From contig NZ_JAHRHK010000012.1 of assembly GCF_021246465.1 (NCBI RefSeq), forward strand, positions 41,508 to 105,507: a stretch of DNA of 64,000 bases, read 5' to 3'. Positions 3,856 through 63,946 of this stretch are shown in pieces (position 1 is the first letter of the stretch; every line of letters starts with the position of its first letter). The notes beneath the pieces were generated by a model. The model did no database searches. It was not told the origin of the DNA and saw only the letters and a program-made list of their open reading frames with translations. This DNA is from Nocardioides sp. R-C-SC26 (GTDB lineage: Bacteria; Actinomycetota; Actinomycetes; Propionibacteriales; Nocardioidaceae). Made by a program: the position numbers and the translations under genes.

Positions 3856-4878
3856 ATGGGTGGGAGTCGAGGCGGGACGAATGTTCCGCGGCATGGCGGG
3901 CACGTGGGTGAGCGCCAGGATCCTCCGGCCGAGGTCCAGTACGTCACGTTGCACGGTCACCGCCGCGCATTCGTCAAGACCGGGTCTGGCCCCGCGGTGC
4001 TGTTGCTGCATGGCCTCGCGTGCGATCACACGACGTGGTCGCCCGTGATCGAGGCACTCGCCCAGCGCTACACGGTGATCGCCCCCGACCTCCTGGGGCA
4101 CGGCAAGTCCGCGAAGCCACGTGCTGACTACAGCGTCGGTGGCTACGCCAACGCGATGCGCGACCTGCTGACGGTGCTGGGCATCGACAAGGTCACCGTC
4201 GTCGGCCACAGCTTCGGCGGCGGCGTGGCGATGCAGTTCGCCTACCAGTTCCCCGAGCGGACCGAGCGGATGATGCTCGTCGCCTCAGGCGGACTCGGAC
4301 CCGAGGTGACGCCGATCATCCGGGCGATCACCACGCCGGGCTATCACCAGCTGGTGGGGGTGCTGACGGTCCCTGGCGTTCGGCATCTCGGTATCGCGGG
4401 CTTGCGGGGTCTGGCCTCGACCGGATGGAAGAGCACCCGCGATCTCGCAGAGATCGCCGAGATCTACGAGACCTTCCGTGATCCTGACGCGCGTGCCGCG
4501 ATCCGCCACGTCGTCCGCGCGGTGGTGGACTGGCGCGGACAGATCGTCACCATGGCCGACCGTGCCTACCTCACCGAGGCGATGCCGATGGCGGTGGTCT
4601 GGGGGCGCGACGACAAGGTGATCCCGGTGCGCCATGCCAGCAACGCCGCCGCGCTCGCGCCGAACGCCCGGATCGAGGTGATCCCCAATGCCGGACACTT
4701 CCCGCACAAGGACCACCCCGAGCGATTCGTGAAGATCCTGCATGACTGGATCTCCACGACCCGTCCGGCGGTCTACTCCCGTGCGAAGTGGCGCACGCTG
4801 CTGCGCGCGGGGCAGGTCGGTCCGCTCTCGCCGGTCGGCGGGACGGTCACCGACTTGTCGGCGCGCGTCCAGGCCTGA
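3856..4878 (+). CDS. alpha/beta-hydrolase fold enzyme
   Basis: Probable serine hydrolase; the substrate is unknown. The 340-residue product shows the oxyanion-loop HG at residues 52-53 (LLLHGLACDHTTW), the nucleophile Ser119 in VVGHSFGGG, the acid Asp252 in WGRDDKVIP and His281 in AGHFPH, so the triad is complete. Several in-frame ATGs exist from 3802; the one at 3856 is chosen because a strong GGGAGGGG Shine-Dalgarno precedes it. There is no signal peptide. The gene stands alone between fasR and aceE, with a repeat cluster directly after it. Mycobacterial proteins of this type exist, but no specific function can be assigned. Confidence 0.88.
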   Translation: MGGSRGGTNVPRHGGHVGERQDPPAEVQYVTLHGHRRAFVKTGSGPAVLLLHGLACDHTTWSPVIEALAQRYTVIAPDLLGHGKSAKPRADYSVGGYANAMRDLLTVLGIDKVTVVGHSFGGGVAMQFAYQFPERTERMMLVASGGLGPEVTPIIRAITTPGYHQLVGVLTVPGVRHLGIAGLRGLASTGWKSTRDLAEIAEIYETFRDPDARAAIRHVVRAVVDWRGQIVTMADRAYLTEAMPMAVVWGRDDKVIPVRHASNAAALAPNARIEVIPNAGHFPHKDHPERFVKILHDWISTTRPAVYSRAKWRTLLRAGQVGPLSPVGGTVTDLSARVQA

Positions 4879-5045: not shown

Positions 5046-7821
5046 ACGCGTCGCCGCCCTCCTGGAGAACGCCGGCGACGGCGGTGGCGTCGTCGATGCG
5101 GTACTGCGCGGCGGCCTTGGCGACCAGGGCCGGCTCGATCTCGCCGGCGTCGGCCAGGGCCTGGAGCGCCCGGACGACGACCGACTGGGCGTCGATGCGG
5201 AAGTACCGGCGGGCGGCCGGACGGGTGTCGGCGAAGCCGAATCCGTCGGCGCCGAGCACGCAGTAGTCGCCCGGAACCCAGCGGGCGATCTGGAGCGGCA
5301 CCGCCGACATGAAGTCCGAGACGGCGACGAACGGCCCCTGGGCGCCCTCCAGTGCGCTGGTGACGTAGGGGATGCGCTGCGGTGCGTCGGCGTGGAGCAG
5401 GTTCCAGTCCTCGGCGGCCACGGCGTCGCGTGAGAGCTCGTTCCACGACGTGACCGACCAGGTGTCGGCCTGCACGCCCCACTCCTCGGCGAGCAGACGA
5501 GCAGCCTCGTCGATCCACGGATAGGCGACACCGGACGCCATCAGCTGCACCCGCGGGCCGGTGCCGTCGGCCTTCGCGACGGCGTGGAGACCGCGCAGGA
5601 TCCCCTCGACATCGACGTCGTCCGGCTCGGCCGGCTGCGTCACGGGCTCGTTGTAGACGGTGAGGTAGTAGATGACGTTCTCACCGTCGGGGTGCTCCTC
5701 GGTCGAGCCGTACATCCGCTCCAGGCCGGCTCTCATCACGTGCCCGACCTCGTAGGAGAACGCCGGGTCGTAGTGGACGACGGCTGGGTTGGTGGCGGCG
5801 AGGAGCGGCGAGTGTCCGTCGGCGTGCTGGAGCCCCTCGCCGGTCAGGGTGGTGCGGCCGGCCGTCGCCCCGATCAGGAAGCCGCGGGCGAGCTGGTCGG
5901 CCATCGCCCAGATCGAGTCACCGGTGCGCTGGAAGCCGAACATCGAGTAGAAGATGTAGAACGGGATCATGTGCTCGCCGTGGGTGGCGTAGGCCGAACC
6001 CGCCGCGGTGGCCGACGCCATCGCACCGGCCTCGGAGATGCCCTCGTGGAGCATCTGACCCTGCGGCGACATCTTGTAGGACAACAACATGTTGCGGTCG
6101 ACCGACTCGAAGGTCTGACCATGCGGGTCGTAGACCTTCGCGCTCGGGAACATCGCGTCCATGCCGAAGGTGCGGTACTCGTCCGGCGCGATCGGCACCA
6201 GGCGCGGACCGATGCCCTCGTGCTTCATCCAGTCCTTGAGCAGGCGGACGGCGGCCATGGTCGTGGCGACCTTGTTCGTGCCGGCGCCCTTCTTCAGGGC
6301 CGCGTACGTCGAGTCGTCCGGCAAGGTGAGCGGTGTGGCGCGCACGGTGCGCTGCGGCAGCGAGCCGCCGAGCTGACGACGTCGCTCGAGCATGTACTCG
6401 ATCTCGGGGGAGTCGGCACCTGGGTGGAAGAACGGAGCGGTGCCGGTGGCCTCGTAGGCGGCGTCGAGGTCGCGGTCGCTCACCGGCAGGTAGAGCCGGT
6501 CGCGGAAGCGCTTGAGGTCCTCGCGCGTGAGCTTCTTCATCTGGTGGGTGGCGTTCTTGCCCTCGAGAGCGTCGATGGTCCAGCCCTTGATGGTGTGGGC
6601 CAGGATCACCGTCGGCTGACCGACGTGCTTGGTGGCGGAGTCGAAGGCGGCGTAGACCTTGCGGTAGTCGTGCCCGCCACGCGGCAGCTTCTCGATCTGC
6701 CGGTCGGTCATGTGCTCGACCATGGCGCGCAGGCGCGGGTCGGCGCCGAAGAAGTGCTCGCGGTTGTAGGCGCCGCTCTCGACCGAGAAGGTCTGGAAGG
6801 CGCCGTCGGGAGTGGAGTTCATGGTGTTGACGAGCACGCCGTCGACGTCGCGGGCCAGCAGGGCGTCCCACTCGCGGCCCCAGACCACCTTGATGACGTT
6901 CCACCCGGCGCCGCGGAAGTTCGACTCCAGCTCCTGGATGATCTTGCCGTTGCCGTTCACCGGCCCGTCGAGCTGCTGGAGGTTGCAGTTGATGACCCAC
7001 GTGAGGTTGTCGAGCTCCTCGCGGGCGGCGATCCGGATGGCGCCCAGCGACTCCGGCTCGGCCATCTCGCCGTCACCGAGGAACGCCCACACGTGCTGGT
7101 CGGAGGTGTCCTTGATGCCGCGGTTCGCCAGGTAGCGGTTGAAGCGGGCCTGGTAGATCGAGTTGATGCCCGTCAGGCCCATCGAGACTGTCGGGAACTC
7201 CCAGAACTCGGGCATGAGCCGTGGGTGCGGGTAGGACGAGAGTCCCGCACCGGTGCCGTGCTGGACCTCTTGGCGGAAGCGGAAGAGCTGCTGCTCGTTC
7301 AGCCGGCCCTCGAGGTAGGCGCGTGCGTAGATACCCGGCGAGGCGTGACCTTGGATGAAGATCTGGTCGCCGCCGCCGGGATGCTCCTTGCCGCGGAAGA
7401 AGTGGTTGAAGCCGACCTCGTAGAGGCTGGCCGACGACTGGTAGGTCGCGATGTGGCCGCCGACCTCCAGGCCCTTGCGGTTGGCGCTCGAGACCATCAC
7501 GGCGGCGTTCCAGCGGATGAAGGCGCGGATCCGACGTTCGATGTCCTCGTCGCCGGGGAACCACGGCTCACGCTCGGGCGGGATCGTGTTGATGTAGTCG
7601 GTGCTGCGCAGGGCCGGCACGCCGACCTGGGTCTCGCGGGCGCGCTCCAACAGCCGCAGCATCACGTAGCGAGCGCGAGCGCGACCTCGTTCGTCGACCA
7701 GCGAGTCGAAGGAGTCCAGCCAGTCCTGGGTCTCGTCCGGATCGATGTCGGGCAGCTGCGTGGGCAGCCCCTCGTGGATGACCGATGGGGCCGACGGGGC
7801 GGGCGCGTTGTCTCCACTCAC
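5044..7821 (-). CDS. aceE: pyruvate dehydrogenase E1 component, homodimeric type
   Basis: Thiamine-diphosphate enzyme that decarboxylates pyruvate and passes the acetyl group to the E2 lipoyl domain of pyruvate dehydrogenase. At 925 residues it has the usual length for AceE. It contains the ThDP/Mg motif [10 protein letters not shown] followed by the [15 protein letters not shown] segment, plus the conserved KGW and [10 protein letters not shown] regions typical of the family. ATG at 7821 begins [10 protein letters not shown], a short variable leader ahead of the conserved DWLDSFD segment. It is monocistronic; divergent from it lies a DUF3052 gene, the same pairing as in mycobacteria. A small palindrome lies just upstream. 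Confidence 0.97.
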
Positions 7822-41081: not shown

Positions 41082-41149
41082 GGCTCACGTGGAGGGCTGG
41101 CGCCCATCCAGTGGCGGCGGAGTCGGCCGCCGGCGAGGCGCTGCTAGAT

Positions 41150-41345
41150 TGCGATCGCCGTGGTGCACGGGAAGCCGGTCTGATGCCGGCGCGGCCCTCG
41201 CCACTGTAGCCGTCGAGCACGGCGACCCCTGCGGTGCGAATCAGCGCGACGAGTCTGTCGGGCCGAGGAGCACCGGGCCACTGGGCGCGAGCCTGGGAAG
41301 GTCGGTCGTCGGGTGTTGACACGGAAGCCAGGAGACCGGCCACGG
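41150..41345 (+). ncRNA. cobalamin riboswitch, btu/cob operon
   Basis: Adenosylcobalamin-sensing leader. Conserved elements appear in order: GGTGCACGGGAAGCCGGT with ATGCCGG pairing, GGCCCTCGCCACTGTAGC, CCACTGGGCGCGAGCCTGGG with AAGG, and the B12 box AGCCAGGAGACCGGCC (41326-41341). The ribosome site GGAGG and ATG 41378 follow within 40 bp, so control is probably at translation initiation or by early termination. It heads the ten-gene operon up to cobK. Confidence 0.96.
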
Positions 41346-41377
41346 CGCACGTATCCACGAGGGTTTTGGAGGAATAC

Positions 41378-42421
41378 ATGCGCAGCCGACCCCTGCCGCT
41401 TTTCAGCACCACGTCCATCCGTCGCACCGGCCTGGGGATCGTCTCCCTCGCCACGGTCCTCGCTCTCGCCGGATGTGCTGGCGAGCCCGAGGCCGACAAG
41501 ACCGCGAGCGAGCCTGGTCAGTCCGGCGTGGCAGATGCCGCCTACCCGGTGACGATCGAGAGCTGCGGTCGCAGCACCACGCTCGACGCGCCACCGACGC
41601 GTGCGGTCACGCTCAACCAGGGCGCCACCGAGGTCGCCCTCGCTCTCGGCGTCGCAGACCAGATGGCGGGTACCGCCTACATCGACGACCAGGTGGCCGA
41701 CCAGTGGGCCGATGCCTACGCCGCCGTTCCGGTGCTCTCCGCGGAGTACCCGACCGGGGAGGAGTTCCTCGCCGCCGAGCCGGACTTCGCCTACGCCTCC
41801 TACGTGAGCGCCTTCGATCGTGAGGTCGCCGGAACCCAGGACGACCTCGAGGGCGACGGCATCGCGACCTACCTCTCGCCGTTCGGCTGCGAGGACAAGG
41901 AGCTGCGTCCGGCGCCGTCCTTCGACGCCGTGTGGGACGAGATCGACACCGTCGGTGCCGCCTTCGGTGTACCCGAGCGGGCTGCTGAGCTGCGCACCGC
42001 GCAGGAGGACGCACTCGCTGCCGTGGCCGACGAGGCGAGCGGCGAGGGCGTCACGGTGCTCTGGTACGACTCCGGTACGAAGACGCCGCTCGTGGGAGCC
42101 GGTGACGGTGGCCCGGGTCTGGTGATCGAGGCGACCGGCGCGGAGAACATCTTCGCCGACCTCGAGGGCAGCTGGGCCGACGGCAACTGGGAGGACGTCG
42201 TCGAGGCCGACCCCGACGTCATCGTCCTGGTCGACGCCGCCTGGGATGCCGCCTCCGCCAAGCGCGAGCACCTCGAGAACGACCCGGTGCTGAGCAAGCT
42301 GACCGCCGTCGCGCAGGGCCGTCTGATCACGATCGCCTACTCCGAGTCGACGCCCGGGGTGCGCATGGTCGACGGCGCCCGCCATCTGGCCGAGGGCATC
42401 GCGGCACTCGACCTCGGGTGA
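41378..42421 (+). CDS. btuF: ABC transporter substrate-binding lipoprotein, corrinoid uptake
   Basis: A 347-residue lipoprotein that likely captures cobalamin or corrinoid precursors. The signal peptide ends in the lipobox LALAGC. The body is a class III binding fold: RAVTLNQGATEVALALGV, the YPTGEEFLAAEPDFAYASY segment and a long interdomain helix. It is strictly under the cobalamin riboswitch and followed by permease and ATPase genes, which supports B12 rather than iron-siderophore uptake. ATG 41378 with GGAGG upstream. Confidence 0.9.
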   Translation: MRSRPLPLFSTTSIRRTGLGIVSLATVLALAGCAGEPEADKTASEPGQSGVADAAYPVTIESCGRSTTLDAPPTRAVTLNQGATEVALALGVADQMAGTAYIDDQVADQWADAYAAVPVLSAEYPTGEEFLAAEPDFAYASYVSAFDREVAGTQDDLEGDGIATYLSPFGCEDKELRPAPSFDAVWDEIDTVGAAFGVPERAAELRTAQEDALAAVADEASGEGVTVLWYDSGTKTPLVGAGDGGPGLVIEATGAENIFADLEGSWADGNWEDVVEADPDVIVLVDAAWDAASAKREHLENDPVLSKLTAVAQGRLITIAYSESTPGVRMVDGARHLAEGIAALDLG

Positions 42422-43467
42422 GTCGAGCTCTCGCCGTTCGGACGGCGCCGGTGGCCCTGGTGGTCGTCGCTGCGCTCGCGTTGTTCGCGAGCATGGCGGT
42501 GGCCCTGGGCATCGGCGCCGTCCGCGTACCCACCGCCGATGTCGTCGAGGTGGTGCTACGCAGGCTCAACGTCGGCGACTTCGACGTCCGCCTGCTCGAC
42601 GACCAGATCGTGTGGCAGCTGCGGGTGCCACGCGGACTCGGGGCCGCCGCGGTCGGTGCCGGGCTGGCGATCTGCGGTGTCGTGCTCCAGGCACTCACCC
42701 GCAACGACCTCGCCGACCCTTACCTGCTGGGCCTCTCCAGCGGGGCGGGCGTCGGCGCCGTCACGGTGATCGTGCTCGGCGTCTCCTTCGCGGGCTTCGT
42801 CGGCTCGACGGCGGTCACGGCGGCAGCACTCGTCGGCTCGCTCGCGGCCCTGCTCCTGGTGCTGGTGATCTCCGTGGGCCGCGGTGGCGAGCTGCCCCCG
42901 GCTCGCACCGTGCTCGCCGGCGTCGCCGTGGGCCAGGTCGCGACGGCCTACACCTCGCTCATCGTCATCGTCGACGGCGACAGCCATGCCGCACGCCGCG
43001 TGCTGGAGTGGACCCTCGGCTCGGTCGCCGGCCTGCGCTGGCCGAGCGCACTCGTGGTCACCGTCGTCGCCCTGCTCGGGGTGGTCTTCTTCAGCGCCCT
43101 CGCCGACCATCTCGATGCCTTCGCCTTCGGCGAGACCGCCGCGCGCTCGTTGGGAGTCGACGTCGTGCGCCTGCGGTGGGTGCTCCTCGTCGGGACGGCG
43201 TTCGTGACGGCCGTGCTGGTGGCCTACGCGGGGGCGATCGGCTTCGTCGGCCTGGTCGTGCCGCACATGGTGCGCGCGGTCGTCGGGCCGCGACATCGCC
43301 TGCTCCTGCCGCTCTCGGCACTCGTCGGTGCCACCCTGCTCGTGCTCGCCGACCTCGGCGCGCGCACCGTCGTCGAGGGCCAGGAGGTGCCGATCGGCGT
43401 CGTCACCGCGGTGATCGGTGCCCCCTTCTTCGCGGTCCTGCTGCGCCGTAGTCGGAGCGCGACGTGA
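42418..43467 (+). CDS. btuC: ABC transporter permease (FecCD/BtuC type)
   Basis: A 349-residue membrane protein with about ten helices. RVPRGLGAAAVGAGLAICGV, then LADPYLLGLSSGAGVGA and GFVGLVVPHMVRAVVGPRHR are the family hallmarks; the last contains the ATPase-coupling loop. GTG 42418 overlaps the binding-protein stop. It forms the channel of the corrinoid importer. Confidence 0.93.
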   Translation: MSRALAVRTAPVALVVVAALALFASMAVALGIGAVRVPTADVVEVVLRRLNVGDFDVRLLDDQIVWQLRVPRGLGAAAVGAGLAICGVVLQALTRNDLADPYLLGLSSGAGVGAVTVIVLGVSFAGFVGSTAVTAAALVGSLAALLLVLVISVGRGGELPPARTVLAGVAVGQVATAYTSLIVIVDGDSHAARRVLEWTLGSVAGLRWPSALVVTVVALLGVVFFSALADHLDAFAFGETAARSLGVDVVRLRWVLLVGTAFVTAVLVAYAGAIGFVGLVVPHMVRAVVGPRHRLLLPLSALVGATLLVLADLGARTVVEGQEVPIGVVTAVIGAPFFAVLLRRSRSAT

Positions 43468-44243
43468 ACGCCCTCGTCGCACGGGACCTGACCTGGTCGG
43501 TCAAGGAGCGCACCATCGTCGACGTCGAGCACCTCGAGTTGCGGGCTGGTCGGTTGACGGGACTGCTCGGACCCAACGGCTGCGGCAAGACGTCGTTACT
43601 GCACCTGCTGGCGGGGGTGCGCCGTACCGGCGCCGGTTCGGTGCGTCTGGGAGAGACCGACGTGGTGCGGCTCTCCGCCCGCGAGCGCGCCCGCGTGCTG
43701 GCGTTGGTGGAGCAGCAGGCCGCGACCGCCCTCGACCTGACTGTCCGCCAGGTCGTCGAGCTCGGTCGCGTGCCCCACCGGATCCGCGTCGGCATCCCGG
43801 AGCGCGACGTCGGCGGGGCCGACGCCATCGCGAGGGCGGTCGAGGCGACCGACATCGCCGACCTGCTCGATCGCACCTGGCAGCACCTCTCCGGAGGCGA
43901 ACGGCAACGCGTCCACCTGGCGCGGGCGCTCGCCCAGGAGCCGCAGGTGCTGCTGCTGGACGAGCCGACCAACCACCTCGACCTTCGGCACCAGCTCACC
44001 CTGCTCACCCAGGTACGCGACGTGGGGATCACCACCGTGGCCGCGTTGCACGACCTCGACCTCGCCGCGGCGTTCTGCGACGACCTCGTCGTGATGTGTG
44101 CCGGGCGGATCGTGGCTTCGGGTCCGACGACGGAGGTCCTGACCAGCGCCCTGGTCGCCGAGGTCTACGGCGTCGCCGTCGACGTCGCGCCGCACCCGAC
44201 CCGCACGGGGATGCACGTGCGATGGTCGGGGGTGCTGGCATGA
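43464..44243 (+). CDS. btuD: ABC transporter ATP-binding protein (BtuD type)
   Basis: A 259-residue ATPase driving the importer. Walker A is GPNGCGKTS, the signature LSGGERQRVHLARALAQEP, Walker B VLLLDEPTNHLD, and the switch His is in ALHDLDLAAAF. GTG 43464 overlaps the permease stop; ATGA overlap with the following gene. Family members also serve iron-siderophores, but the riboswitch and neighbours argue for cobalamin. Confidence 0.93.
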   Translation: MNALVARDLTWSVKERTIVDVEHLELRAGRLTGLLGPNGCGKTSLLHLLAGVRRTGAGSVRLGETDVVRLSARERARVLALVEQQAATALDLTVRQVVELGRVPHRIRVGIPERDVGGADAIARAVEATDIADLLDRTWQHLSGGERQRVHLARALAQEPQVLLLDEPTNHLDLRHQLTLLTQVRDVGITTVAALHDLDLAAAFCDDLVVMCAGRIVASGPTTEVLTSALVAEVYGVAVDVAPHPTRTGMHVRWSGVLA

Positions 44244-44986
44244 CCACGGATCCGCGGGTTGTCCTGGTGGGCATGTCGCACGGCGAGGTCGCCGCACGCG
44301 CTGCGCTGCTCGAGCTCGCGCGCCCGCACGGCGCCCGTCTCGCTTATCTCCAGGCCGGCACACCGTCGGTGGTGGGGGTGCTGGACGACCTCGCCGATGC
44401 CGATGGAGCGGGGCGCCCTGCGCGCATCGTGCTCGTCGGCGTCAAGCTGGGTCGGCTCGGGCCGGGGGCATCGTGGCTGCGCAGGATCGTCGCCCACTGG
44501 TGGCGCGAGCGGACCGGGCCGCGCCCGACGCTCGACGTCGCGACCACGCTGGTCGCCGACGCCGCGGAGCTGCGCGCGGTGCTCGACCCGGCTGCCGGTC
44601 TCACCCGCGCCGTCTCCGACGGGGGAGCCGGGCTCACCTCGGCCGCCTGGGAGGACGTGCCCCAGCACCGCCACCAGGTGCTCGTCTGCCGCGGCCCCCG
44701 GTGCGCCGCCCAGGGCGCTGAGGCTGTGGCCGAAGCGCTGGCCCTGGAGCTGATGAGCCTGGGGCTGGGCGACGACGACGTGCTCGTCACCCATACCGGC
44801 TGCCAGTTCCCCTGCAACCAGGCTCCCGTCGTCACGGTGCAGCCCGACGACGTCTGGTACGGCGGGGTCGACGCGGACGTCGTCCGCGCGATCGCCCGAC
44901 AGCACCTCGCCGCGCACACACCCGTGGCATCCCACCGACTGACCCGATCGATCCGGAACACCCAGGACCCCGGGAGGGACCACTGA
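44240..44986 (+). CDS. CbiX-like chelatase domain fused to a thioredoxin-like 2Fe-2S ferredoxin domain
   Basis: A 248-residue two-domain protein. Residues about 1-115 resemble the CbiX/sirohydrochlorin chelatase fold with a possible metal His in GMSHGEVAAR, but the usual GHGSR motif is changed. Residues about 148-225 form a [2Fe-2S] domain: VLVCRGPRCAAQG followed by THTGCQFPCNQAPVV, giving four Cys. Cobalt insertion here should be by CobN, so this protein may instead deliver cobalt or electrons, for example for Co(II) reduction before adenosylation. ATG 44240 overlaps btuD; its stop overlaps the cobN start (TGATG). Confidence 0.82.
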   Translation: MTTDPRVVLVGMSHGEVAARAALLELARPHGARLAYLQAGTPSVVGVLDDLADADGAGRPARIVLVGVKLGRLGPGASWLRRIVAHWWRERTGPRPTLDVATTLVADAAELRAVLDPAAGLTRAVSDGGAGLTSAAWEDVPQHRHQVLVCRGPRCAAQGAEAVAEALALELMSLGLGDDDVLVTHTGCQFPCNQAPVVTVQPDDVWYGGVDADVVRAIARQHLAAHTPVASHRLTRSIRNTQDPGRDH

Positions 44987-47900
44987 TGCGCATCGCCCTG
45001 CTCTCCACCTCCGACACCGACCTGCTCTCGGCGCGCGCCGCGAGCCGCCTCGGTGCCGACTACGTCTACGCCAATCCCTCGCGGCCCGGACACCAGTCGA
45101 TGGCCGCGGTCATCGAGGGTTGCGACCTCGTGGTCGGACGGATCCTCGGTTCGCCCCAGGACCTGTGTGGTGGCTTCCGCCGGATCCGCGAGACCGGGAT
45201 GCCGATGGTCGTGCTCGGCGGGGAGCAGCAGCCCAGCGCGGAGCTGATGGAGCTCTCCTCGGTGCCGATCGGCATCGCCGCGCAGGCCCACCGCTACCTC
45301 GCGCAGGGTGGCCCAGAGAACCTGCGACAGTTGCACGCCTTCCTCTCCGACACGGTGCTGCTCACCGGTGACGGCTTCGAGGAGCCGGTGGAGATCCCCG
45401 AGTGGGGGTGGGCCGAGCGGGGCTCCTCCACCGCCAGCACGGCGGTGCAACCGGTGGTCGAGGAGGTCCGAGGAACGAGGACGGTCTCGAAACCCCGCGT
45501 CGGCGTCCTCTACTACCGGGCGCACGAGGCGAGCGGCAACACGGCGTTCGTCCATGCCCTCGCCGACGCCATCGACGCGACTGGGGAGGCTGTCGGGCTG
45601 CCGATCTTCGCGGGCTCGCTCCGCGCCGCCCCCGACGCTCTCTTCGCAGACCTCGGCACGCTCGACGCCCTGGTCGTCACCGTGCTCGCCGCCGGCGGCA
45701 GCACCCCGGCCGGTGCCAGTGCAGGCGAGGACGACGAGTCGTGGGACGTCGAGCGGATCGCCGCCCTGGACATCCCCGTCCTGCAGGGGCTCTGCCTGAC
45801 GTCGAGCCGCGCGGAGTGGGAGGCCAACGACGACGGCGTCACGCCTCTCGACTCCGCCACCCAGGTCGCGATCCCGGAGTTCGACGGCCGGATCATCACG
45901 GCGCCGTTCTCGTTCAAGGAGATCGATCCTGATGATCCGGCTGGTCTGCCCCGATATGTCGCCGACGCAGAGCGATGCGGTCGCGTAGCCCGGATCGCCG
46001 TCAACCACGCGCGTCTGGGCCACATCCCGGTCGAGGATCGCAAGGTGGCGCTGATGCTCTCGGCCTACCCGACCAAGCACAGCCGCGTCGGCAACGCCGT
46101 CGGCCTCGACACGCCGGTCTCGACGATCCGGCTCCTGCGCCGGATGCGCGGGGCCGGCTACGACCTCGGTGGTCCCGGCGCGATCCCGGGGCTCGACCTC
46201 GACGACGACACCGTGGCCGGTGACACGCTCATCCACGCCCTGATCGACGCCGGTGGCCAGGACGAGGAATGGCTCACCAACGCCCAGCTGACCGAAGCCC
46301 ACGTGCGGATCAGCAAGGCCTCCTACGACGCCTGGACCGCCGACCTCCCTCCCGACCTGCGCTCCGACATCGAGGAGGCCTGGGGGCCCTCGCCGGGCAC
46401 CCTGTTCGTCAACGACGCCGGCGAGATCGTGCTCGCGACGATCCAGGCGGGCAACGTGGTGCTGCTGATCCAGCCGCCGCGCGGCTTCGGGGAGAACCCG
46501 GTGGCGATCTACCACGATCCCGACCTCGCGGTGACCCACCACTACCTGGCGGCCTACCGCTGGCTCGCCGCTGCCGAAGACGACGGCGGCTTCGGAGCGC
46601 ACGCGGTGGTGCACCTGGGCAAGCACGGTTCGATGGAGTGGCTGCCGGGCAAGAACGCCGCGCTCTCGGCGTCCTGCGCCACCGACGCCGCGATCGCCGA
46701 CCTGCCGCTGATCTACCCGTTCCTGGTCAACGACCCGGGCGAGGGCGCTCAGGCCAAGCGCCGAGCGCACGCCACGATCGTGGATCACCTGATCCCGCCG
46801 ATGGCCCGAGCGGAGTCCTACGGCGACATCACCCGGCTCGAGCTGCTGCTCGACGAGTACTCCAACATCGCCGCGATGGACCCGGCCAAGCTGCCGGCGA
46901 TCCGTGGCGAGATCTGGCAGCTGATGCAGGCGGCACAGATGCATCGCGACCTCGGGCTGGAGGAGCGACCGGAGGACGACGACTTCGACGACTTCCTGCT
47001 GCACGTCGACGGTTGGCTGTGCGAGATCAAGGACGCGCAGATCCGCGACGGCCTGCACGTGCTCGGCGCCGCCCCGCAGGGCGAGGCGCGGGTCAACCTG
47101 GTGCTCGCGATCCTGCGTGCGGCCCAGGTCTGGGGCGGGCAGTCCCACGCCGTGCCCGGGTTGCGGGCAGCACTCGGCCTGAAGGAGGGAGCCGAAGCGG
47201 CGGTCGCGGTCGACGCCATCGAGGAGAAGGCGCGAGCTCTGGTGCAGGCGATGGAGGTCGCCGGCTGGGACGTCGCCGCCGCGGCCGGACTCCACCCGGA
47301 CCCGCAGGTCGTGCAGGTGCTGGAGTTCGCGGCCACCCAGGTGGTGCCGCGGCTGGCAGGCACGACCGACGAGCTCGACGCCGTGCTGCACGCCCTCGGC
47401 GGTGGCTTCGTTCCTGCCGGGCCGAGCGGGTCTCCGCTGCGGGGCCTGGTCAACGTGCTGCCGACGGGCCGCAACTTCTACACCGTCGACCCCCGTGCTG
47501 TGCCCTCGCGCCTGGCCTGGCAGACCGGTCAGGCGATGGCCGAATCGCTGCTGCAGCGCCACCTCGACGACACCGGCGAGTACCCGACGTCGGTCGGGCT
47601 CTCGGTGTGGGGCACCTCCGCGATGCGCACCAGCGGCGACGACGTCGCCGAGGTGCTCGCCCTGCTCGGCGTCCGTCCGGAGTGGGACGAGGCCTCCCGC
47701 CGCGTGCGGGACCTGACGGTCGTGCCCCTGGAGGAGCTGGGACGGCCGCGCATCGACGTCACCGTGCGGATCTCCGGTTTCTTCCGCGACGCCTTCCCGC
47801 ACGTCGTCGCGATGCTCGACGACGCCGTCGGCCTGGTCGCGTCGCTGGAGGAGCCGCTGGACCGCAACTTCGTGCGGGCCCACACCCAGGCCGACCTCGC

Positions 47901-48648
47901 CGAGCACGGCGACGAGCGCCGCGCGACCTCCCGGATCTTCGGCTCCAAGCCGGGCTCCTACGGCGCCGGCATCCTGCAGGTGATCGAGTCCGGCACCTGG
48001 CGCTCCGACGACGATCTCGCGGAGGTGTACACCGCGTGGGGCGGGTTCGCCTACGGACGCGGGCTCGACGGCGTCGCGGCGTCGGAGGACATGCGCACCA
48101 ACTACCGGCGGATCAAGGTCGCGGCCAAGAACATCGACACCCGCGAGCACGACATCGCCGACAGCGACGACTACTTCCAGTACCACGGTGGGATGGTCGC
48201 CACGATCCGAGCGCTCACGGGCTCGGAGCCGAAGGCCTACGTCGGCGACTCGACCACGCCCGACGCCGTGCGCACCCGCACCCTGCAGGAGGAGACCAAC
48301 CGCGTCTTCCGCTCGCGGGTCGTGAACCCGCGCTGGATCGCCGCGATGCAGCGGCACGGCTACAAGGGCGCGTTCGAGCTCGCCGCGACCGTCGACTACC
48401 TCTTCGGCTTCGACGCCACCGCGGGCGTCGTGCACGACTGGATGTATGAGTCGTTGGCGAAGGAGTACGTGCTCGACGAGACGAACCAGGAGTTCATGCG
48501 GACCTCGAACCCGTGGGCGTTGCGCGGCATCGTGGAGAAGCTGCACGAGGCACGCGACCGTGGCCTGTGGGCCGAGCCCGATCCGGACCTCCTGGCCGCG
48601 CTGCAACAGGTCTACCTCGACCTCGAAGGCGACCTGGAGGACCGGTGA
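44986..48648 (+). CDS. cobN: cobaltochelatase large subunit
   Basis: Inserts cobalt into hydrogenobyrinic acid a,c-diamide using ATP with the AAA+/VWA subunits; the partner here is the gene at 59771. At 1220 residues the length is normal. Family segments include LHLGKHGSMEWLPGK-like HLGKHGSMEWLPGKN, YPTKHSRVGNAVGLDTP, NVLPTGRNFYTVDPRAVP and SRIFGSKPGSYGAG. Residues about 156-170 are an insertion encoded by a dispersed repeat (45453-45494), lying in a linker before RVGVLYYRAHEASGNT. ATG 44986 overlaps the previous stop; cobF starts 4 bp before its end. Confidence 0.96.
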   Translation: MRIALLSTSDTDLLSARAASRLGADYVYANPSRPGHQSMAAVIEGCDLVVGRILGSPQDLCGGFRRIRETGMPMVVLGGEQQPSAELMELSSVPIGIAAQAHRYLAQGGPENLRQLHAFLSDTVLLTGDGFEEPVEIPEWGWAERGSSTASTAVQPVVEEVRGTRTVSKPRVGVLYYRAHEASGNTAFVHALADAIDATGEAVGLPIFAGSLRAAPDALFADLGTLDALVVTVLAAGGSTPAGASAGEDDESWDVERIAALDIPVLQGLCLTSSRAEWEANDDGVTPLDSATQVAIPEFDGRIITAPFSFKEIDPDDPAGLPRYVADAERCGRVARIAVNHARLGHIPVEDRKVALMLSAYPTKHSRVGNAVGLDTPVSTIRLLRRMRGAGYDLGGPGAIPGLDLDDDTVAGDTLIHALIDAGGQDEEWLTNAQLTEAHVRISKASYDAWTADLPPDLRSDIEEAWGPSPGTLFVNDAGEIVLATIQAGNVVLLIQPPRGFGENPVAIYHDPDLAVTHHYLAAYRWLAAAEDDGGFGAHAVVHLGKHGSMEWLPGKNAALSASCATDAAIADLPLIYPFLVNDPGEGAQAKRRAHATIVDHLIPPMARAESYGDITRLELLLDEYSNIAAMDPAKLPAIRGEIWQLMQAAQMHRDLGLEERPEDDDFDDFLLHVDGWLCEIKDAQIRDGLHVLGAAPQGEARVNLVLAILRAAQVWGGQSHAVPGLRAALGLKEGAEAAVAVDAIEEKARALVQAMEVAGWDVAAAAGLHPDPQVVQVLEFAATQVVPRLAGTTDELDAVLHALGGGFVPAGPSGSPLRGLVNVLPTGRNFYTVDPRAVPSRLAWQTGQAMAESLLQRHLDDTGEYPTSVGLSVWGTSAMRTSGDDVAEVLALLGVRPEWDEASRRVRDLTVVPLEELGRPRIDVTVRISGFFRDAFPHVVAMLDDAVGLVASLEEPLDRNFVRAHTQADLAEHGDERRATSRIFGSKPGSYGAGILQVIESGTWRSDDDLAEVYTAWGGFAYGRGLDGVAASEDMRTNYRRIKVAAKNIDTREHDIADSDDYFQYHGGMVATIRALTGSEPKAYVGDSTTPDAVRTRTLQEETNRVFRSRVVNPRWIAAMQRHGYKGAFELAATVDYLFGFDATAGVVHDWMYESLAKEYVLDETNQEFMRTSNPWALRGIVEKLHEARDRGLWAEPDPDLLAALQQVYLDLEGDLEDR
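45453..45494 (+). repeat. dispersed repeat unit inside cobN
   Basis: A 42-bp unit beginning GGTGGTCGAG, containing GAGGAACGAGG-like CGAGGAACGAGG and ending TCTCGAAACCCC. It matches the units in the 4880-5045 cluster in start, middle and end. It is read in frame as about 14 residues (VVEEVRGTRTVSKP) in a variable CobN linker, so the insertion is tolerated. Confidence 0.75.
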
Positions 48649-49380
48649 TCATCCGAGTCGTCGGCTTCGGCATGGGGCCCCAGCACGTCACGCCGGAGGC
48701 CGCGGCGGCGCTGCGGGCGTCGTCGTACGTGCTCGCGGTCAGCAAGCGGGACGACGACCCGCTGCTCGCCGTCCGCCGCGAGGTCGCCGCGGCGTACGGG
48801 CTGGACGTCGTCGCCGTCGAGGACCCTGCCCGGGACCGTGACGACCCGGCCGACTACGACGGCGCCGTCCGCGACTGGCACGAGGCGCGGTCGCACGCGT
48901 GGGGTACCGCTGTCGCGGGCCGGCCGGGCGATCCCGCCTTCCTGGTGTGGGGCGACCCCGCGCTCTACGACTCCACGCTGCGCGTGGTGGACCGGCTCGC
49001 GGCACGGCTCGACGCCGACGTCGAGGTGGTCGCCGGCATCAGCGCGCCGCAGCTGCTCGCGGCGCGGCACCGGGTGGTGCTCCACGAGGTCGGCCACCCG
49101 GTGCACGTCACCACCGAGCGTCGGCTGCGCGGCGACGGCGCGGGCCGGGCAGCGCAATCTCGTCGTGATGCTCACCAGCGGTGCCGCGTTGACGGGCCTG
49201 GAGCAGTGGTCGATCTGGTGGGGGGCCAACCTCGGTCATGGCTCGGAGCGGCTGGTCGCCGGCCGGGTCGGGCACGTGGCCGAGGAGATCGCCTCGGCTC
49301 GGGCGGCCGTGCGGGCCGGGGCCGGCTGGGTGATGGACCTCTACCTGCTCCGCGCCCCCGACCCAGGAGAGCTGCCATGA
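48645..49380 (+). pseudogene. cobF: precorrin-6A synthase (deacetylating), frameshifted
   Basis: CobF methylates C-1 of precorrin-5 and releases acetate in the oxygen-dependent pathway. GTG 48645 begins the family-like VVGFGMGPQHVTPEAAA, and the frame continues through AVAGRPGDPAFLVWGDPALY and HPVHVTTERRLRG to about 49136. From 49141 the C-terminal half continues in the +1 frame (GQRNLVVMLTSGAALTGL to the end at 49380). One extra base within about 49131-49150 (a GGCGACGGCGCGGGCC stretch) explains it. Repairing it gives about 244 residues, the normal length. Both halves keep good coding character, so this is a recent mutation, a sequence error or, less likely, programmed shifting. The downstream ATGA coupling is intact. 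Confidence 0.85.
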
Positions 49381-49724
49381 CCCGGCCCGACCGCGACGTG
49401 CTGCTCTGCCGCGACTGCTGCTGCGGCACGAGCAAGCACCCCACGACCGACCACGCCGCCCAGCGCGACGCCGTCGAGGCGTCTGCGGGGGAGTGGGACG
49501 GGGAGCGGGTGCGGGTCCGCGTCGTGGACTGCCTCGACGAGTGCGACCGCAGCAACGTCGTGCTGGTGCGCGACTTCACGGTCCCGGGACGCCGTCCGAA
49601 GGACGTCTGGCTCGGTGGTGTCCTCACCGAGGCCGCGACGTCCGCGCTGGCCACCTGGGTGCGTCGCGGCGGCCCGGTGCCCGAGGCGCTCGCTCCGCTG
49701 ATGTTCCGGGGCAAGCGCAGTTGA
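49377..49724 (+). CDS. small thioredoxin-like [2Fe-2S] ferredoxin
   Basis: A 115-residue protein with Cys in LLCRDCCCGTSKHP and VVDCLDECDRSNVV, the arrangement of the short ferredoxin-like proteins that accompany actinobacterial cobalamin genes. It resembles the C-terminal domain of the CbiX-fusion protein at 44240 and may donate electrons to a reductive step in corrin handling. ATG 49377 overlaps the cobF stop. Function is inferred from context. Confidence 0.8.
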   Translation: MTRPDRDVLLCRDCCCGTSKHPTTDHAAQRDAVEASAGEWDGERVRVRVVDCLDECDRSNVVLVRDFTVPGRRPKDVWLGGVLTEAATSALATWVRRGGPVPEALAPLMFRGKRS

Positions 49725-49777: not shown

Positions 49778-50326
49778 GTGATCGCCGCAGCCGTGCCGGC
49801 GCCTCGCCTCCCGGGCCGGGCGGTGCTGGTCGTGCCCGTGCGCGAGCTCGAGGACGTCGTGCGCGAGCGCACCGCACACCACGACGCGACGTTCCTCGGT
49901 GTGGACGACGCCTTCTGCAACGCCCACATCACGTTGCTCGGGCCCTGGCTCGATGATCCCGACGACGCCGACCTCGCCTCCGTCGGTGCGATCGCTGAGT
50001 CCACGCCGCCGTTCGACGTCACGCTCGGCCGGGTCCGGGAGTTCCCCGACGGCCTGCTCTACCTCGCGCCGGAACCCGACGCCGGGTTGCGGTCCCTGAC
50101 GGCGGCGCTGATGGCCGCGTTCCCGCAGTGCCCGCCCTACGGCGGAGCCTTTCCCGAGCCGACACCGCATCTCACGATCGAGCACCGCGCCTCCGGTCTC
50201 GACGCCGACGACGTCCGCGCGCTGCTCGGCGACCGCCTCCCGGTGACGAGCCGGGTGGAGCGGATCGACCTCCAGTGGTGGGCCAACGACGACTGTCACG
50301 TGCGGGCCTCGTGGAGGCTCGGCTGA
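49778..50326 (+). CDS. 2'-5' RNA ligase family (2H phosphoesterase) protein
   Basis: A 182-residue protein with the two HxTx motifs of the 2H superfamily: NAHITLLGPW and TPHLTIEHRA, about 80 residues apart, plus a WWANDDC segment near the end. Members ligate or hydrolyse 2'-5' or cyclic phosphodiester bonds; the substrate here is unknown. GTG 49778 is taken; a TTG at 49721 overlapping the upstream stop is possible. Its tight placement between a ferredoxin and cobQ (TGATG overlap) under the riboswitch is odd and suggests a link to nucleotide-loop or corrinoid metabolism. Confidence 0.85.
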   Translation: MIAAAVPAPRLPGRAVLVVPVRELEDVVRERTAHHDATFLGVDDAFCNAHITLLGPWLDDPDDADLASVGAIAESTPPFDVTLGRVREFPDGLLYLAPEPDAGLRSLTAALMAAFPQCPPYGGAFPEPTPHLTIEHRASGLDADDVRALLGDRLPVTSRVERIDLQWWANDDCHVRASWRLG

Positions 50327-51738
50327 TGGCCGGGCTGCTGGTCGCCGGCACCACCTCCGATGCCGGCAAGAGCGTCGTGACGACCGGCCTGTGTCGCGCG
50401 TTCGCGCGCCGCGGTGTGCGGGTGGCTCCGTACAAGGCACAGAACATGAGCAACAACTCCATGGTCGTGCGCGACGCGCGCGGGTCGACCGGCGAGATCG
50501 GTCGGGCCCAGTGGATCCAGGCGCTGGCCGCCCGCGCCACGCCCGAGGTCGCGATGAACCCGGTGCTGCTCAAACCCGGCACCGATCGCCGCAGCCACGT
50601 CGTGCTGATGGGGCAGCCCTCGGGACACGTCGACGCACGCGACTTCGTGGACGGTCGCCGTCGTCTGGCCGCCGCCGCGCACACGGCGTTCGACGACCTC
50701 GCCGCGCGCTATGAGGTCGTGGTGGCCGAGGGCGCGGGCAGTCCGGCGGAGATCAACCTGCGGGCCGGCGACTACGTCAATCTCGGCCTCGCCCGGCATG
50801 CCGACCTGCCGACCGTCGTGGTCGGCGACATCGACCGCGGTGGAGTCTTCGCCGCGTTCTACGGCACCCTGCACCTGCTCGACCCGGCCGACCAGCGGAT
50901 GATCGCCGGCTGGATCGTCAACAAGTTCCGGGGCGACGTCTCGCTGCTGCAGCCCGGCCTCGACGAGCTGAGCGCACGCACGCTGCGACCCTTCTTCGGG
51001 GTCCTGCCGTGGCACCCCGACCTGTGGCTCGACAGCGAGGACGCCCTCGATCTGGAGGGCCGCCGCGAGCACGGCGGCGCGGCGCGTGCCCGGGTCGCCG
51101 TCGTCCGGTTGCCGCGGATCTCCAACTTCACCGACGTCGACGCCCTCGGCCTCGAGCCCGACCTCGACGTCGTCTTCGCCAGCACGCCCCGCGGACTGGC
51201 CGACGCCGACCTGATCGTGCTGCCCGGCACCCGCGCGACCCTGGCCGACCTCGGCTGGCTGCGCGCGCGGGGACTCGACCGGGCCATCCTCGCTCACGCG
51301 GCCGCCGGTCGACCGGTGCTCGGCATCTGCGGCGGCTGCCAGATGCTCGGTGAGGAGATCAGCGACCCCGACGGCGTCGAGGGCCCGGGCACGGACGCAC
51401 CCGTGTCCGGACTCGGCCTGCTGCCCTTGCGCACCGTGTTCGGCGTCGAGAAGGTGCTGCGCCTGCACGAGCCCGCGGGCTACGAGATCCACCACGGCCA
51501 GGTCGGCGGAGAGCGTGTCGCCGACGCGGTCGGCGGCACGATGGTGCACGGGTCCCTCGAGGACGACGCGACCCGCGCGGGCTTCCTGCGCGACGCCCTC
51601 GGCGTCACCTCGCGCGCCTCCTTCCCGGCTGCGCGCGAGCGGCGTCTGGACCTGCTCGGCGATCTGGTCGAGCAGCACCTCGACGTGGACGCTCTGCTCG
51701 AGCTGGCCCACCGCGGCCCGAACGGACCGGGATCGTGA
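50326..51738 (+). CDS. cobQ: cobyric acid synthase
   Basis: Amidates four side chains of adenosylcobyrinic acid a,c-diamide using glutamine and ATP. The 470-residue protein starts with the dethiobiotin-synthetase-like ATP site GTTSDAGKSVVTTGL, then APYKAQNMSNNS and GDIDRGGVFAAFYG. The glutaminase half has the nucleophile Cys in GICGGCQMLGEEI and the His in YEIHHGQV. ATG 50326 overlaps the previous stop. Overlaps cobK by GTGA. Confidence 0.96.
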   Translation: MAGLLVAGTTSDAGKSVVTTGLCRAFARRGVRVAPYKAQNMSNNSMVVRDARGSTGEIGRAQWIQALAARATPEVAMNPVLLKPGTDRRSHVVLMGQPSGHVDARDFVDGRRRLAAAAHTAFDDLAARYEVVVAEGAGSPAEINLRAGDYVNLGLARHADLPTVVVGDIDRGGVFAAFYGTLHLLDPADQRMIAGWIVNKFRGDVSLLQPGLDELSARTLRPFFGVLPWHPDLWLDSEDALDLEGRREHGGAARARVAVVRLPRISNFTDVDALGLEPDLDVVFASTPRGLADADLIVLPGTRATLADLGWLRARGLDRAILAHAAAGRPVLGICGGCQMLGEEISDPDGVEGPGTDAPVSGLGLLPLRTVFGVEKVLRLHEPAGYEIHHGQVGGERVADAVGGTMVHGSLEDDATRAGFLRDALGVTSRASFPAARERRLDLLGDLVEQHLDVDALLELAHRGPNGPGS

Positions 51739-52490
51739 GGGTCCTGGTCCTGGGTGGCACCGGCGAGGCCCGCGCCCTGGCCGCGGCTCTGGTGGCCGAC
51801 GGCGACGAGGTGCTGACCTCGCTGGCGGGCCGCGTGTCGAACCCGGCGCTGCCGGTCGGCCAGGTGCGGATCGGCGGCTTCGGCGGCATCGACGGGCTAC
51901 GCGAAGCCGCGGCTGCGTTCGACGTCGTGGTCGACGCGACCCATCCGTTCGCCGCCACCATCTCCGCACATGCCGCGCTGGCCTGCCCGGAGCTGCTCCG
52001 GCTCCAACGCCCCGGCTGGGAGCCGCTCGGCGACTGGCGCGAGGTGGCCGACCACGGCGAGGCGGGCGCCGCCGCCCCGTCGGTCGCGCGCCCGGTCCTG
52101 ACGGTGGGTCGGCAGTCGCTCGCGGCCTTCCGCGACCACGTTGCCCACCGCGCAGCCCTGGTGCGCGTCGTCGAGGCACCGCCCGCGGGCGAGGTGCCGC
52201 CGGCCTGGTCGCTCCTGCGCGACCGCGGCCCCTACGACGTCGCGGGGGAGACGACGCTGATGCGCGAGCACGGCATCGACGTGCTCGTCACCAAGGACTC
52301 CGGTGGCGCGATGACGCGTCCCAAGATCGACGCCGCTGCAGCGCTCGGCGTCCCCGTGATCGTCGTCCGCCGTCCTGCCGTGCCCCCCGGAGCCACGTGC
52401 GTGGACGACGTCGCCGCCGCCAGGCGATGGGTGCGAGCGCGAGGAGGGCGGCGACCTGGACCCGTCGTGCGAGATGCCGCGCGGCCATGA
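51735..52490 (+). CDS. cobK: precorrin-6A reductase
   Basis: Reduces precorrin-6A to precorrin-6B with NADPH; it acts directly after CobF. The 251-residue protein opens with VLVLGGTGEARALAAAL (NADPH site), then VVDATHPFAATISAHA, GRQSLAAFRDH and VTKDSGGAMTRPKIDAA. GTG 51735 overlaps the cobQ stop. It is last in the plus-strand operon; its final 203 bp overlap convergently with the cbiB frame. Confidence 0.95.
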   Translation: MRVLVLGGTGEARALAAALVADGDEVLTSLAGRVSNPALPVGQVRIGGFGGIDGLREAAAAFDVVVDATHPFAATISAHAALACPELLRLQRPGWEPLGDWREVADHGEAGAAAPSVARPVLTVGRQSLAAFRDHVAHRAALVRVVEAPPAGEVPPAWSLLRDRGPYDVAGETTLMREHGIDVLVTKDSGGAMTRPKIDAAAALGVPVIVVRRPAVPPGATCVDDVAAARRWVRARGGRRPGPVVRDAARP

Positions 52491-61729: not shown

Positions 61730-61764
61730 GTGAGGCTCCCGCTCGTCCGCCTGGGTGGATGGAC

Positions 61765-61885
61765 GTCGCGAGGCCGGTCTTCGGACTTCTCGGATCGACC
61801 TGCCCGATGTTCAGGGCGTGCCGTCCGAGTCACCGCAGCGGGCCTGTGCCGGACTCTCACCGGCTTCCCAGATTCTCCCCTCGAG
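61765..61885 (-). ncRNA. cobalamin riboswitch, chelatase-cobO-cobB operon
   Basis: On the minus strand: GGGAAGCCGGTGAGAGTCC, GGCACAGGCCCGCTGCGGTGA and the B12 box AGTCCGAAGACCGGCC (complement of 61771-61786). All core segments are canonical. About 35 bp separate the box from the chelatase ATG at 61729. The promoter of the divergent cobL must lie in the remaining 61886-61946 gap. Confidence 0.94.
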
Positions 61886-61946
61886 CCCGGCATCGAGCCG
61901 AGCCGTCGGGGCACCTCGCAACCAGCGCACGATAGCGTCACGGCCC

Positions 61947-63179
61947 GTGGATCCCCGACCCCCGACGCGTTCGCGGACGCCGATCGATGTCGTCGGCATC
62001 GGCGCGGAGGGCTGGTCAGGACTCAGCGTCGAGGCCCGCGAGGTGATCGCGAAGGCCCCACGTCTCCTGGGATACGGCCGCCACCTCGGGCTCGTGCCCG
62101 AGCAGGCCGGGCAGGAGCGCCGCCAGTGGGACGGCGTGGTGGACCTGGGTGCGGATCCGTGGCTGTCGACCGATCAGCCCGTGGTCGTGCTCGCCTCCGG
62201 CGACCCGCTCGTCTCGGGGATCGGCTCCGCGCTGGTCGACAGCTTCGGGGAGTGCGTCCGCATCCACCCGGCGCTCTCGTCGGTGGCGCTGGCCCGAGCG
62301 CGGATGGGCTGGCGTGCGGAGACGACCACCGTGGTGACCGTCGTCGGACGGCGGCACGAGGCCGTGCTGCGGCACCTCGCCCCCGGTCACCGCCTGCTCG
62401 TGCTGACCTCCGATGCCTCCTCCCCGGACGTCGTCGCGGCGCTGCTGCGCGACGCGGGCTACGAGCGGAGCCGTATGACCGTGCTCGGCGATCTCGGTGC
62501 TGCCTCGGAGTCACGACTCGAGGGCAGGGCCGGCGACTGGTCGCACACCTCGCCGGCCCTGCACGTGCTCGCCCTCGAGCTCGACGGTCCGTCCGTCGCC
62601 GGGTGGACGGCCGGACTCCCTGACGACGCGTTCGAGCACGACGGCCAGCTCACCAAGCGCGACGTCCGCGCCAGCGCCCTGGCCCGGCTCGCGCCACAGC
62701 CGGGTCAGGTGCTGTGGGACGTCGGCGCGGGAGCGGGTTCGATCGGCATCGAGTGGATGCGCGCCCATGCCACCTGCAGTGCCGTGGCCTTCGAGCGTCA
62801 CCCTGACCGGCGGGCTCGGATCGCCCGCAACGCGGCGCGTCTCGGCGTTCCGGGGTTGGAGGTGGCCGGTGATGCCGCCACCCTGTTCGACGTCGGGTGC
62901 GCGCACCCGGCACCCCACGCGGTCTTCGTGGGCGGTGGCGCCACCACGCCCGGCCTGATCGACCTGTGCCGCGACCGACTGCTGCCGGGGGGACGTCTCG
63001 TCGTCCACGGTGTCACCCTCGAGACGGAGCGGCTGTTGCTCGACGCCTACGCCACGCACGGTGGCGAGCTGACCCGGATCGCCGTCGAGACGACCGCTCC
63101 GATCGGGACGTTCACCGGCCGGACGCCGGCCCGCGCCGTCACGCAATGGTGCTGGACCAAGGCTGAGGAGGGCCGATGA
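61947..63179 (+). CDS. cobL: precorrin-6Y C5,15-methyltransferase (decarboxylating)
   Basis: Methylates C-5 and C-15 and decarboxylates the C-12 acetate of precorrin-6B. The 410-residue protein is a CbiE-CbiT fusion: the N-terminal part (about 12-210) begins VVGIGAEGWSGLS and has ASGDPLVSGIG; the C-terminal Rossmann part has WDVGAGAGSIGIEWMRAH. GTG 61947 is chosen because upstream sequence is the antisense riboswitch. ATGA overlap with cobM. Confidence 0.94.
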   Translation: MDPRPPTRSRTPIDVVGIGAEGWSGLSVEAREVIAKAPRLLGYGRHLGLVPEQAGQERRQWDGVVDLGADPWLSTDQPVVVLASGDPLVSGIGSALVDSFGECVRIHPALSSVALARARMGWRAETTTVVTVVGRRHEAVLRHLAPGHRLLVLTSDASSPDVVAALLRDAGYERSRMTVLGDLGAASESRLEGRAGDWSHTSPALHVLALELDGPSVAGWTAGLPDDAFEHDGQLTKRDVRASALARLAPQPGQVLWDVGAGAGSIGIEWMRAHATCSAVAFERHPDRRARIARNAARLGVPGLEVAGDAATLFDVGCAHPAPHAVFVGGGATTPGLIDLCRDRLLPGGRLVVHGVTLETERLLLDAYATHGGELTRIAVETTAPIGTFTGRTPARAVTQWCWTKAEEGR

Positions 63180-63946
63180 CGGTTCACTTCGTCGGAGCAG
63201 GCCCTGGTGCCGCCGACCTGATCACGGTGCGGGCGATGACCCTGCTGGGGCAGGCCGACGTCGTGCTCTACCCGGGTACCTACATCGACCAGGCCGTGCT
63301 CGCGCACTGCGACGGCGCCCGCGTGGTCGACACCCAGGACCTCGACCTCGAGCAGATGGTGCAGATCATGGTCGAGGCGCACGCCGCCGATCTGGACGTC
63401 GTCCGCCTCACCAGCGGCGATCCGTCGGTGTACTCGGCGCTGGCCGAGCAGACCCGTCGTCTCGACGAGGCCGGCGTGCCGTGGGACGTCACTCCGGGAG
63501 TCGCCGCCTACGCCGCCGCCGCCGCCGTGGTCGGGCGCGAGCTGACGGTGCCGCTCGTCGCCCAGTCGGTCGTGATCACGCGAGCCCAGGCGCGCTCGAC
63601 GCAGATGCCGGCGGGGGAGTCGCTGGCCGCGTTCGCCGCGACCCGGGCGACGCTGGCGGTGCACCTGGCGATCACCCGCGTCCGCGACGTCATGGACGAG
63701 GTCGTCGAGCACTACGGACCTGCCTGCCCGGTCGTCGTGGTCTACCGCGCGAGTCAGCCCGAGCAGATCGTGCTGCGCGGCACGGTCGCCGACATCGCCG
63801 ACCGGGTCGAGACCGCGGGGCTGCGGCAGGCCGCTGTGATCCTCGTGGGCGAGGCCCTGCGTCGCGACGACGTGGGCACTCCGGGTTTCAGCGGCGGGGA
63901 GTCCTACCTCTACTCGTCCACACGCGACCGGTCGACGAAACGCTAG
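63176..63946 (+). CDS. cobM: precorrin-4 C11-methyltransferase
   Basis: Adds the C-11 methyl group, converting precorrin-4 to precorrin-5, CobF's substrate. The 256-residue protein shows FVGAGPGAADLITVRAM, LTSGDPSVYSAL, DVTPGVAAYAAAAA and VVYRASQPEQIV. ATG 63176 overlaps the cobL stop. Its last 59 bp overlap convergently with the cobJ end. Confidence 0.96.
   Translation: MTVHFVGAGPGAADLITVRAMTLLGQADVVLYPGTYIDQAVLAHCDGARVVDTQDLDLEQMVQIMVEAHAADLDVVRLTSGDPSVYSALAEQTRRLDEAGVPWDVTPGVAAYAAAAAVVGRELTVPLVAQSVVITRAQARSTQMPAGESLAAFAATRATLAVHLAITRVRDVMDEVVEHYGPACPVVVVYRASQPEQIVLRGTVADIADRVETAGLRQAAVILVGEALRRDDVGTPGFSGGESYLYSSTRDRSTKR

Follow-up and report, generated by a model that had tools for sequence, protein, structure and literature searches.

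A frame break in cobF within the cobalamin gene cluster of a Nocardioides-like actinobacterium

Loss of cobF in the tuberculosis complex

CobF is required for the oxygen-dependent route to cobalamin, in which it carries out the step from precorrin-5 to precorrin-6A, so that a lost CobF blocks this step. The anaerobic counterpart of CobF is CbiD, which catalyzes the corresponding C-1 methylation. Vitamin B12 auxotrophs can result from one missing enzyme, which leaves an incomplete corrinoid pathway and a dependence on uptake. In the Mycobacterium tuberculosis complex, cobF is deleted in all lineages except L8 (PMC7283319, PMC10924821, PMC12713380), and no cobalamin was detected in cells of M. 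tuberculosis (PMC8192938). An isolated loss of cobF is thus already known from this complex.

The locus described here would, if its lesion is real, be a case of that kind with a smaller lesion. As in the M. tuberculosis complex, cobF would have been lost from a nearly complete oxygen-dependent pathway of an actinobacterium that retains B12 uptake. However, the tuberculosis complex has lost the gene by a 4.4-kb deletion that is fixed in the lineage and accompanied by other lesions in cob genes and by adaptation to the host; here, a one-base frameshift is seen in a Nocardioides-like species, in a single draft genome. Incomplete corrinoid pathways are also known from B12 auxotrophs in general (review: PMC8123684); what sets the present case apart is that the lesion is one frameshift and that no other decay was observed. 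In some Nocardioides-like genomes CbiD stands in place of CobF, but the genome analyzed here does not contain CbiD and hence has no such replacement.

The frame break and the surrounding cob genes

The analyzed stretch of 64 kb (G000:C19:41508-105507; hereafter the window) belongs to a draft genome of 3.72 Mb in 106 contigs. Its cobF, the gene of precorrin-6A synthase (48645-49380, plus strand), is split across two reading frames. It starts with a GTG at 48645, which overlaps the stop codon of cobN, and its ancestral stop is the TGA at 49378-49380. The N-terminal two thirds (48645-49143, plus strand), which exhibit the fold of SAM-dependent tetrapyrrole methylases (PF00590; matches to the PDB entries 3nd1 and 2npn), correspond to positions 3-178 of the CobF profile TIGR02434 (profile search, E 1.3e-41). 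The C-terminal third (49144-49380, plus strand) lies in the +1 frame, runs to the ancestral stop and corresponds to profile positions 176-249 (profile search, E 1.3e-16); a search of the whole genome gave the identical split. In the solved CobF structure 3nd1, the two parts match residues 26-192 and 199-273, respectively. With 142.9 bits for the N-terminal and 61 bits for the C-terminal frame, neither part reaches the curated cut-off of TIGR02434 for one uninterrupted CobF (195.8 bits), and the locus therefore represents a broken copy of the family. The complete profile is nevertheless present, in two adjacent pieces directly after cobN within the operon.

The frame switches between about 49134 and 49150 (plus strand). 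An unguided Viterbi scan based on codon usage placed the break at 49144 and found no other in the window. In an alignment with members of the genus, the spacing between the conserved motifs RRLR and GQRN was 16 nt in the window compared to 15 nt in the relatives, which corresponds to a net gain of one nucleotide. All aligned relatives pass the site in a single frame, about 140 genus members carry a full-length CobF, and the absence of the break from relatives is the pattern expected of a pseudogene formed by a recent frameshift. Profile split, alignment and scan together confirm the initial annotation, made from the letters of the window and a list of its open reading frames, in which the two parts of CobF had been assigned to different frames with a break at about 49131-49150.

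That the operon is otherwise intact, as had also been proposed, holds for the neighboring genes in the window. On the plus strand, cobN (44986-48648; TIGR02257, 1072 bits), cobQ (50317-51738, start approximate; NF001989, 561 bits), cobK (51735-52490; NF005968, above cut-off) and cobM (63176-63946; TIGR01465, 263 bits, above cut-off) are intact, and cobL (61821-63179, start approximate) is open with homologues along its length in relatives. The window also contains open frames for cobU, cobT, cobC, cobB, cobO and an AAA/VWA chelatase subunit. It is less secure for cobG, which lies outside the window and contains an assembly gap of 10 N (L136:7990-7999; G000:C19:107989-107998) with GC-rich runs on either side and flanks in different frames. 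One long open frame appears to join cobG, cobI and cobJ, but as it runs across this gap, it cannot be taken to show that cobG is fused. Between the gene following cobF and cobQ, and thus inside the cob operon, a gene of the 2'-5' RNA ligase superfamily was found (PF13563; 49725-50326).

The gene following cobF (49377-49724, plus strand) overlaps the cobF stop and encodes a small Cys-rich protein, which looks ferredoxin-like by inspection and yielded no match in a Pfam search. In 11 of 35 relatives this gene likewise neighbors cobF, either adjacent to it or with an overlap of up to 14 nt. Ribosomes that stay in the N-terminal frame bypass the cobF stop and enter this gene in its own frame, so that one open frame of 359 codons extends from 48645 to 49724 (plus strand), composed of the CobF N-terminal part, about 77 out-of-frame residues and the next gene. 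The maintained coupling of the two genes had been regarded as an argument for a very recent event. This argument does not stand, as the overlap between the cobF stop and the ATG of the next gene survives in the sequence alone and N-frame ribosomes never meet that stop; the translation that would couple the two genes is, as far as can be read from the frames, changed.

Age and origin of the break

That the break is very recent is supported on another ground, as the C-terminal part shows no decay. A branch comparison with a fixed 35-sequence tree gave a ratio of CobF to CobN tip length of 1.17 for this genome, which is mid-range (rank 15 of 35). The tip accounted for 0.370 of a total of 9.44 past the break and for 0.304 of 8.35 before it; the part behind the break has thus evolved little faster than the part in front of it, in rough agreement with the totals. 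Of the columns that are invariant in all other sequences, this genome has a private change at none of 22 in the C-terminal part and at one of 43 in the N-terminal part (P125A). Relaxed constraint, which would be expected for an older lesion alone, was thus not seen. As an out-of-frame stretch is not expected to stay clean for long, these sequence comparisons indicate that the break is either very recent or not real. The closest CobF matches among named genome contigs include several Nocardioides species, but none exceeds 66% identity, so that no near relative is at hand for dating the break by synonymous changes. The data fit either an ordinary loss of function by a very recent mutation or a minor fault of the assembly, and do not suggest any special mechanism.

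We consider it reasonably probable that cobF acquired a real and very recent frameshift by the gain of one base, which inactivates precorrin-6A synthase in this strain. In favor of a real mutation, the break is an isolated one within the 477 kb scanned, the site contains no homopolymer longer than three nucleotides, and there is no run of N inside the 64-kb window. On the other side, a C-terminal part without any decay would be just as expected of an artefact, and the draft contains short N gaps, including one in cobG. The product would lack about 30% of the methylase at its C-terminal end and carry an unrelated tail instead, the conversion of precorrin-5 to precorrin-6A would fail, and de novo synthesis of cobalamin would stop. 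As the genome profile search revealed neither a second CobF nor CbiD in this genome, the loss of cobF would abolish B12 synthesis altogether, and the cell would live on imported B12, needed for its enzymes MetH and NrdJ.

It is also quite possible, if somewhat less probable, that the cobF of the strain is in frame and that the extra base is confined to the consensus of the draft. Besides the undecayed C-terminal part and the N gaps, the GC-rich site is in line with such an error (GC 0.77 over 60 nt, the 81st percentile of the window). However, this assembly contains few frame breaks. The Viterbi scan of a 477-kb sample of the genome gave five calls, namely cobF, the 10-N gap of cobG, a SIR2-like gene and two that proved false on inspection, one being a PVDPGP repeat (C27:143492) and the other an ordinary gene overlap (C27:250599). 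In two closed or near-closed relatives, the same scan gave one call in 200 kb and none in 100 kb, respectively, whereas the poor, indel-ridden assembly of genome G023 gave 21 calls in 138 kb (about 15 per 100 kb). Compared with the latter, the present draft is not generally indel-ridden, but with its short N gaps single errors are possible. Predicted folding at the site was unremarkable and no better than that of shuffled sequence (z 0.33), and a hairpin as the cause of a sequencing fault or of recoding was accordingly rejected. The SIR2-like protein gene (so identified by inspection, perhaps of a defence function) at about G000:C27:59098 (L161) is likewise frameshifted.

It is very unlikely that the two halves are translated separately as a split enzyme, or that the N-terminal part has taken on a new role in fusion with the next gene. 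The 359-codon frame would allow the latter, but in GC-rich genomes chance alone frequently leaves a shifted frame open, the 70 nt before the junction contain no ATG, GTG or TTG in the C-terminal frame, and no aligned relative is split at this site. Least probable of all is a programmed or spontaneous ribosomal frameshift (+1 or -2) that restores full-length CobF, since a downstream frame that is still protein-like and an N-terminal frame that is open past the site are set against relatives that are in frame there, and thus against any conserved recoding, against a site in which inspection revealed no known +1 slippery motif, and against the unremarkable fold. Of the three options offered by the initial annotation, a newly arisen null mutation and an error of sequencing or assembly are hence both still plausible, while ribosomal shifting is not supported.

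Other cobF breaks in the genus and dependence on B12

Split copies across the genus number 4 of about 145 for cobF and 0 of about 143 for cobM. These numbers are too small for a test and hint only faintly at a recurrent loss of cobF. Moreover, at least two of the four split copies sit in error-ridden assemblies, which is in keeping with an assembly error at the present locus as well. Genome G023, in which cobN, cobF, cobK and cobC are all broken, does not count as an independent case of cobF inactivation, and neither does G192, likewise with breaks in several cob genes, nor G213, a draft of 890 contigs. That cobF is the favored first step in the loss of B12 synthesis by free-living actinobacteria, with this genome caught right after it and in parallel to the tuberculosis complex, appears unlikely. 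Gene breaks in G023, which is a single contig (L035, L137, L138, L189-L193), should in general not be read as pseudogenes. Two further single-contig relatives exhibit a cobN in two frames, one at about residue 505 (G133; L133, about 7205-7214) and the other at a different site, at about residue 537 (G101; L134, about 4305-4314).

Six genomes contain CobN without CobF (G076, G105, G107, G114, G130 and G226). They do not indicate that CobF is dispensable, as all six carry CbiD, which was found in none of the CobF-bearing genomes checked. In these six genomes (L126-L131), genes of the anaerobic type and of the late-cobalt type are mixed, in a different gene order and together with CobN. In one further genome (G006), which has no CobF and no CbiD, CobN gave only a weak match (E 1.8e-49); it possibly represents a relic of the pathway.

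The genome analyzed here carries MetH and NrdJ, and no MetE was found in it. With this set of enzymes, the strain should need B12 or methionine. The suggestion that an importer could serve as a backup fits this picture, as genes for a BtuFCD-type importer (binding protein, permease and ATPase; 41384-44243, plus strand, start approximate; open reading frames, PF01497) lie behind a cobalamin riboswitch (41144-41358, plus strand; RF00174, 68.4 bits). It is one of five cobalamin riboswitches above cut-off in the genome. Another one is located upstream of the chelatase, cobO, cobB and cobC genes (61755-61933, minus strand; RF00174, 63.8 bits), and a third (L141; G000:C49:197545-197741) precedes a second NrdJ-like gene by about 0.6 kb.

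In a survey of 216 genomes of the genus, CobN was present in 148 and none was shown in 68, while MetE was nearly absent (2 of 216). Judged by these gene counts, about a third of the genus would lack the cobalamin pathway, and a life without B12 synthesis, dependent on B12 from outside, appears to be common and ordinary in this group, which, like the MetH, NrdJ and importer genes and the missing MetE, is in line with a real loss of cobF in the present strain. For the present genome, an automated pathway call of either "complete" or "broken" hinges on one unverified base. If the frameshift is real, it would show the loss of B12 synthesis at its very first step, before any visible decay of other genes and in a bacterium in which B12-dependent enzymes still serve the synthesis of methionine and deoxynucleotides.
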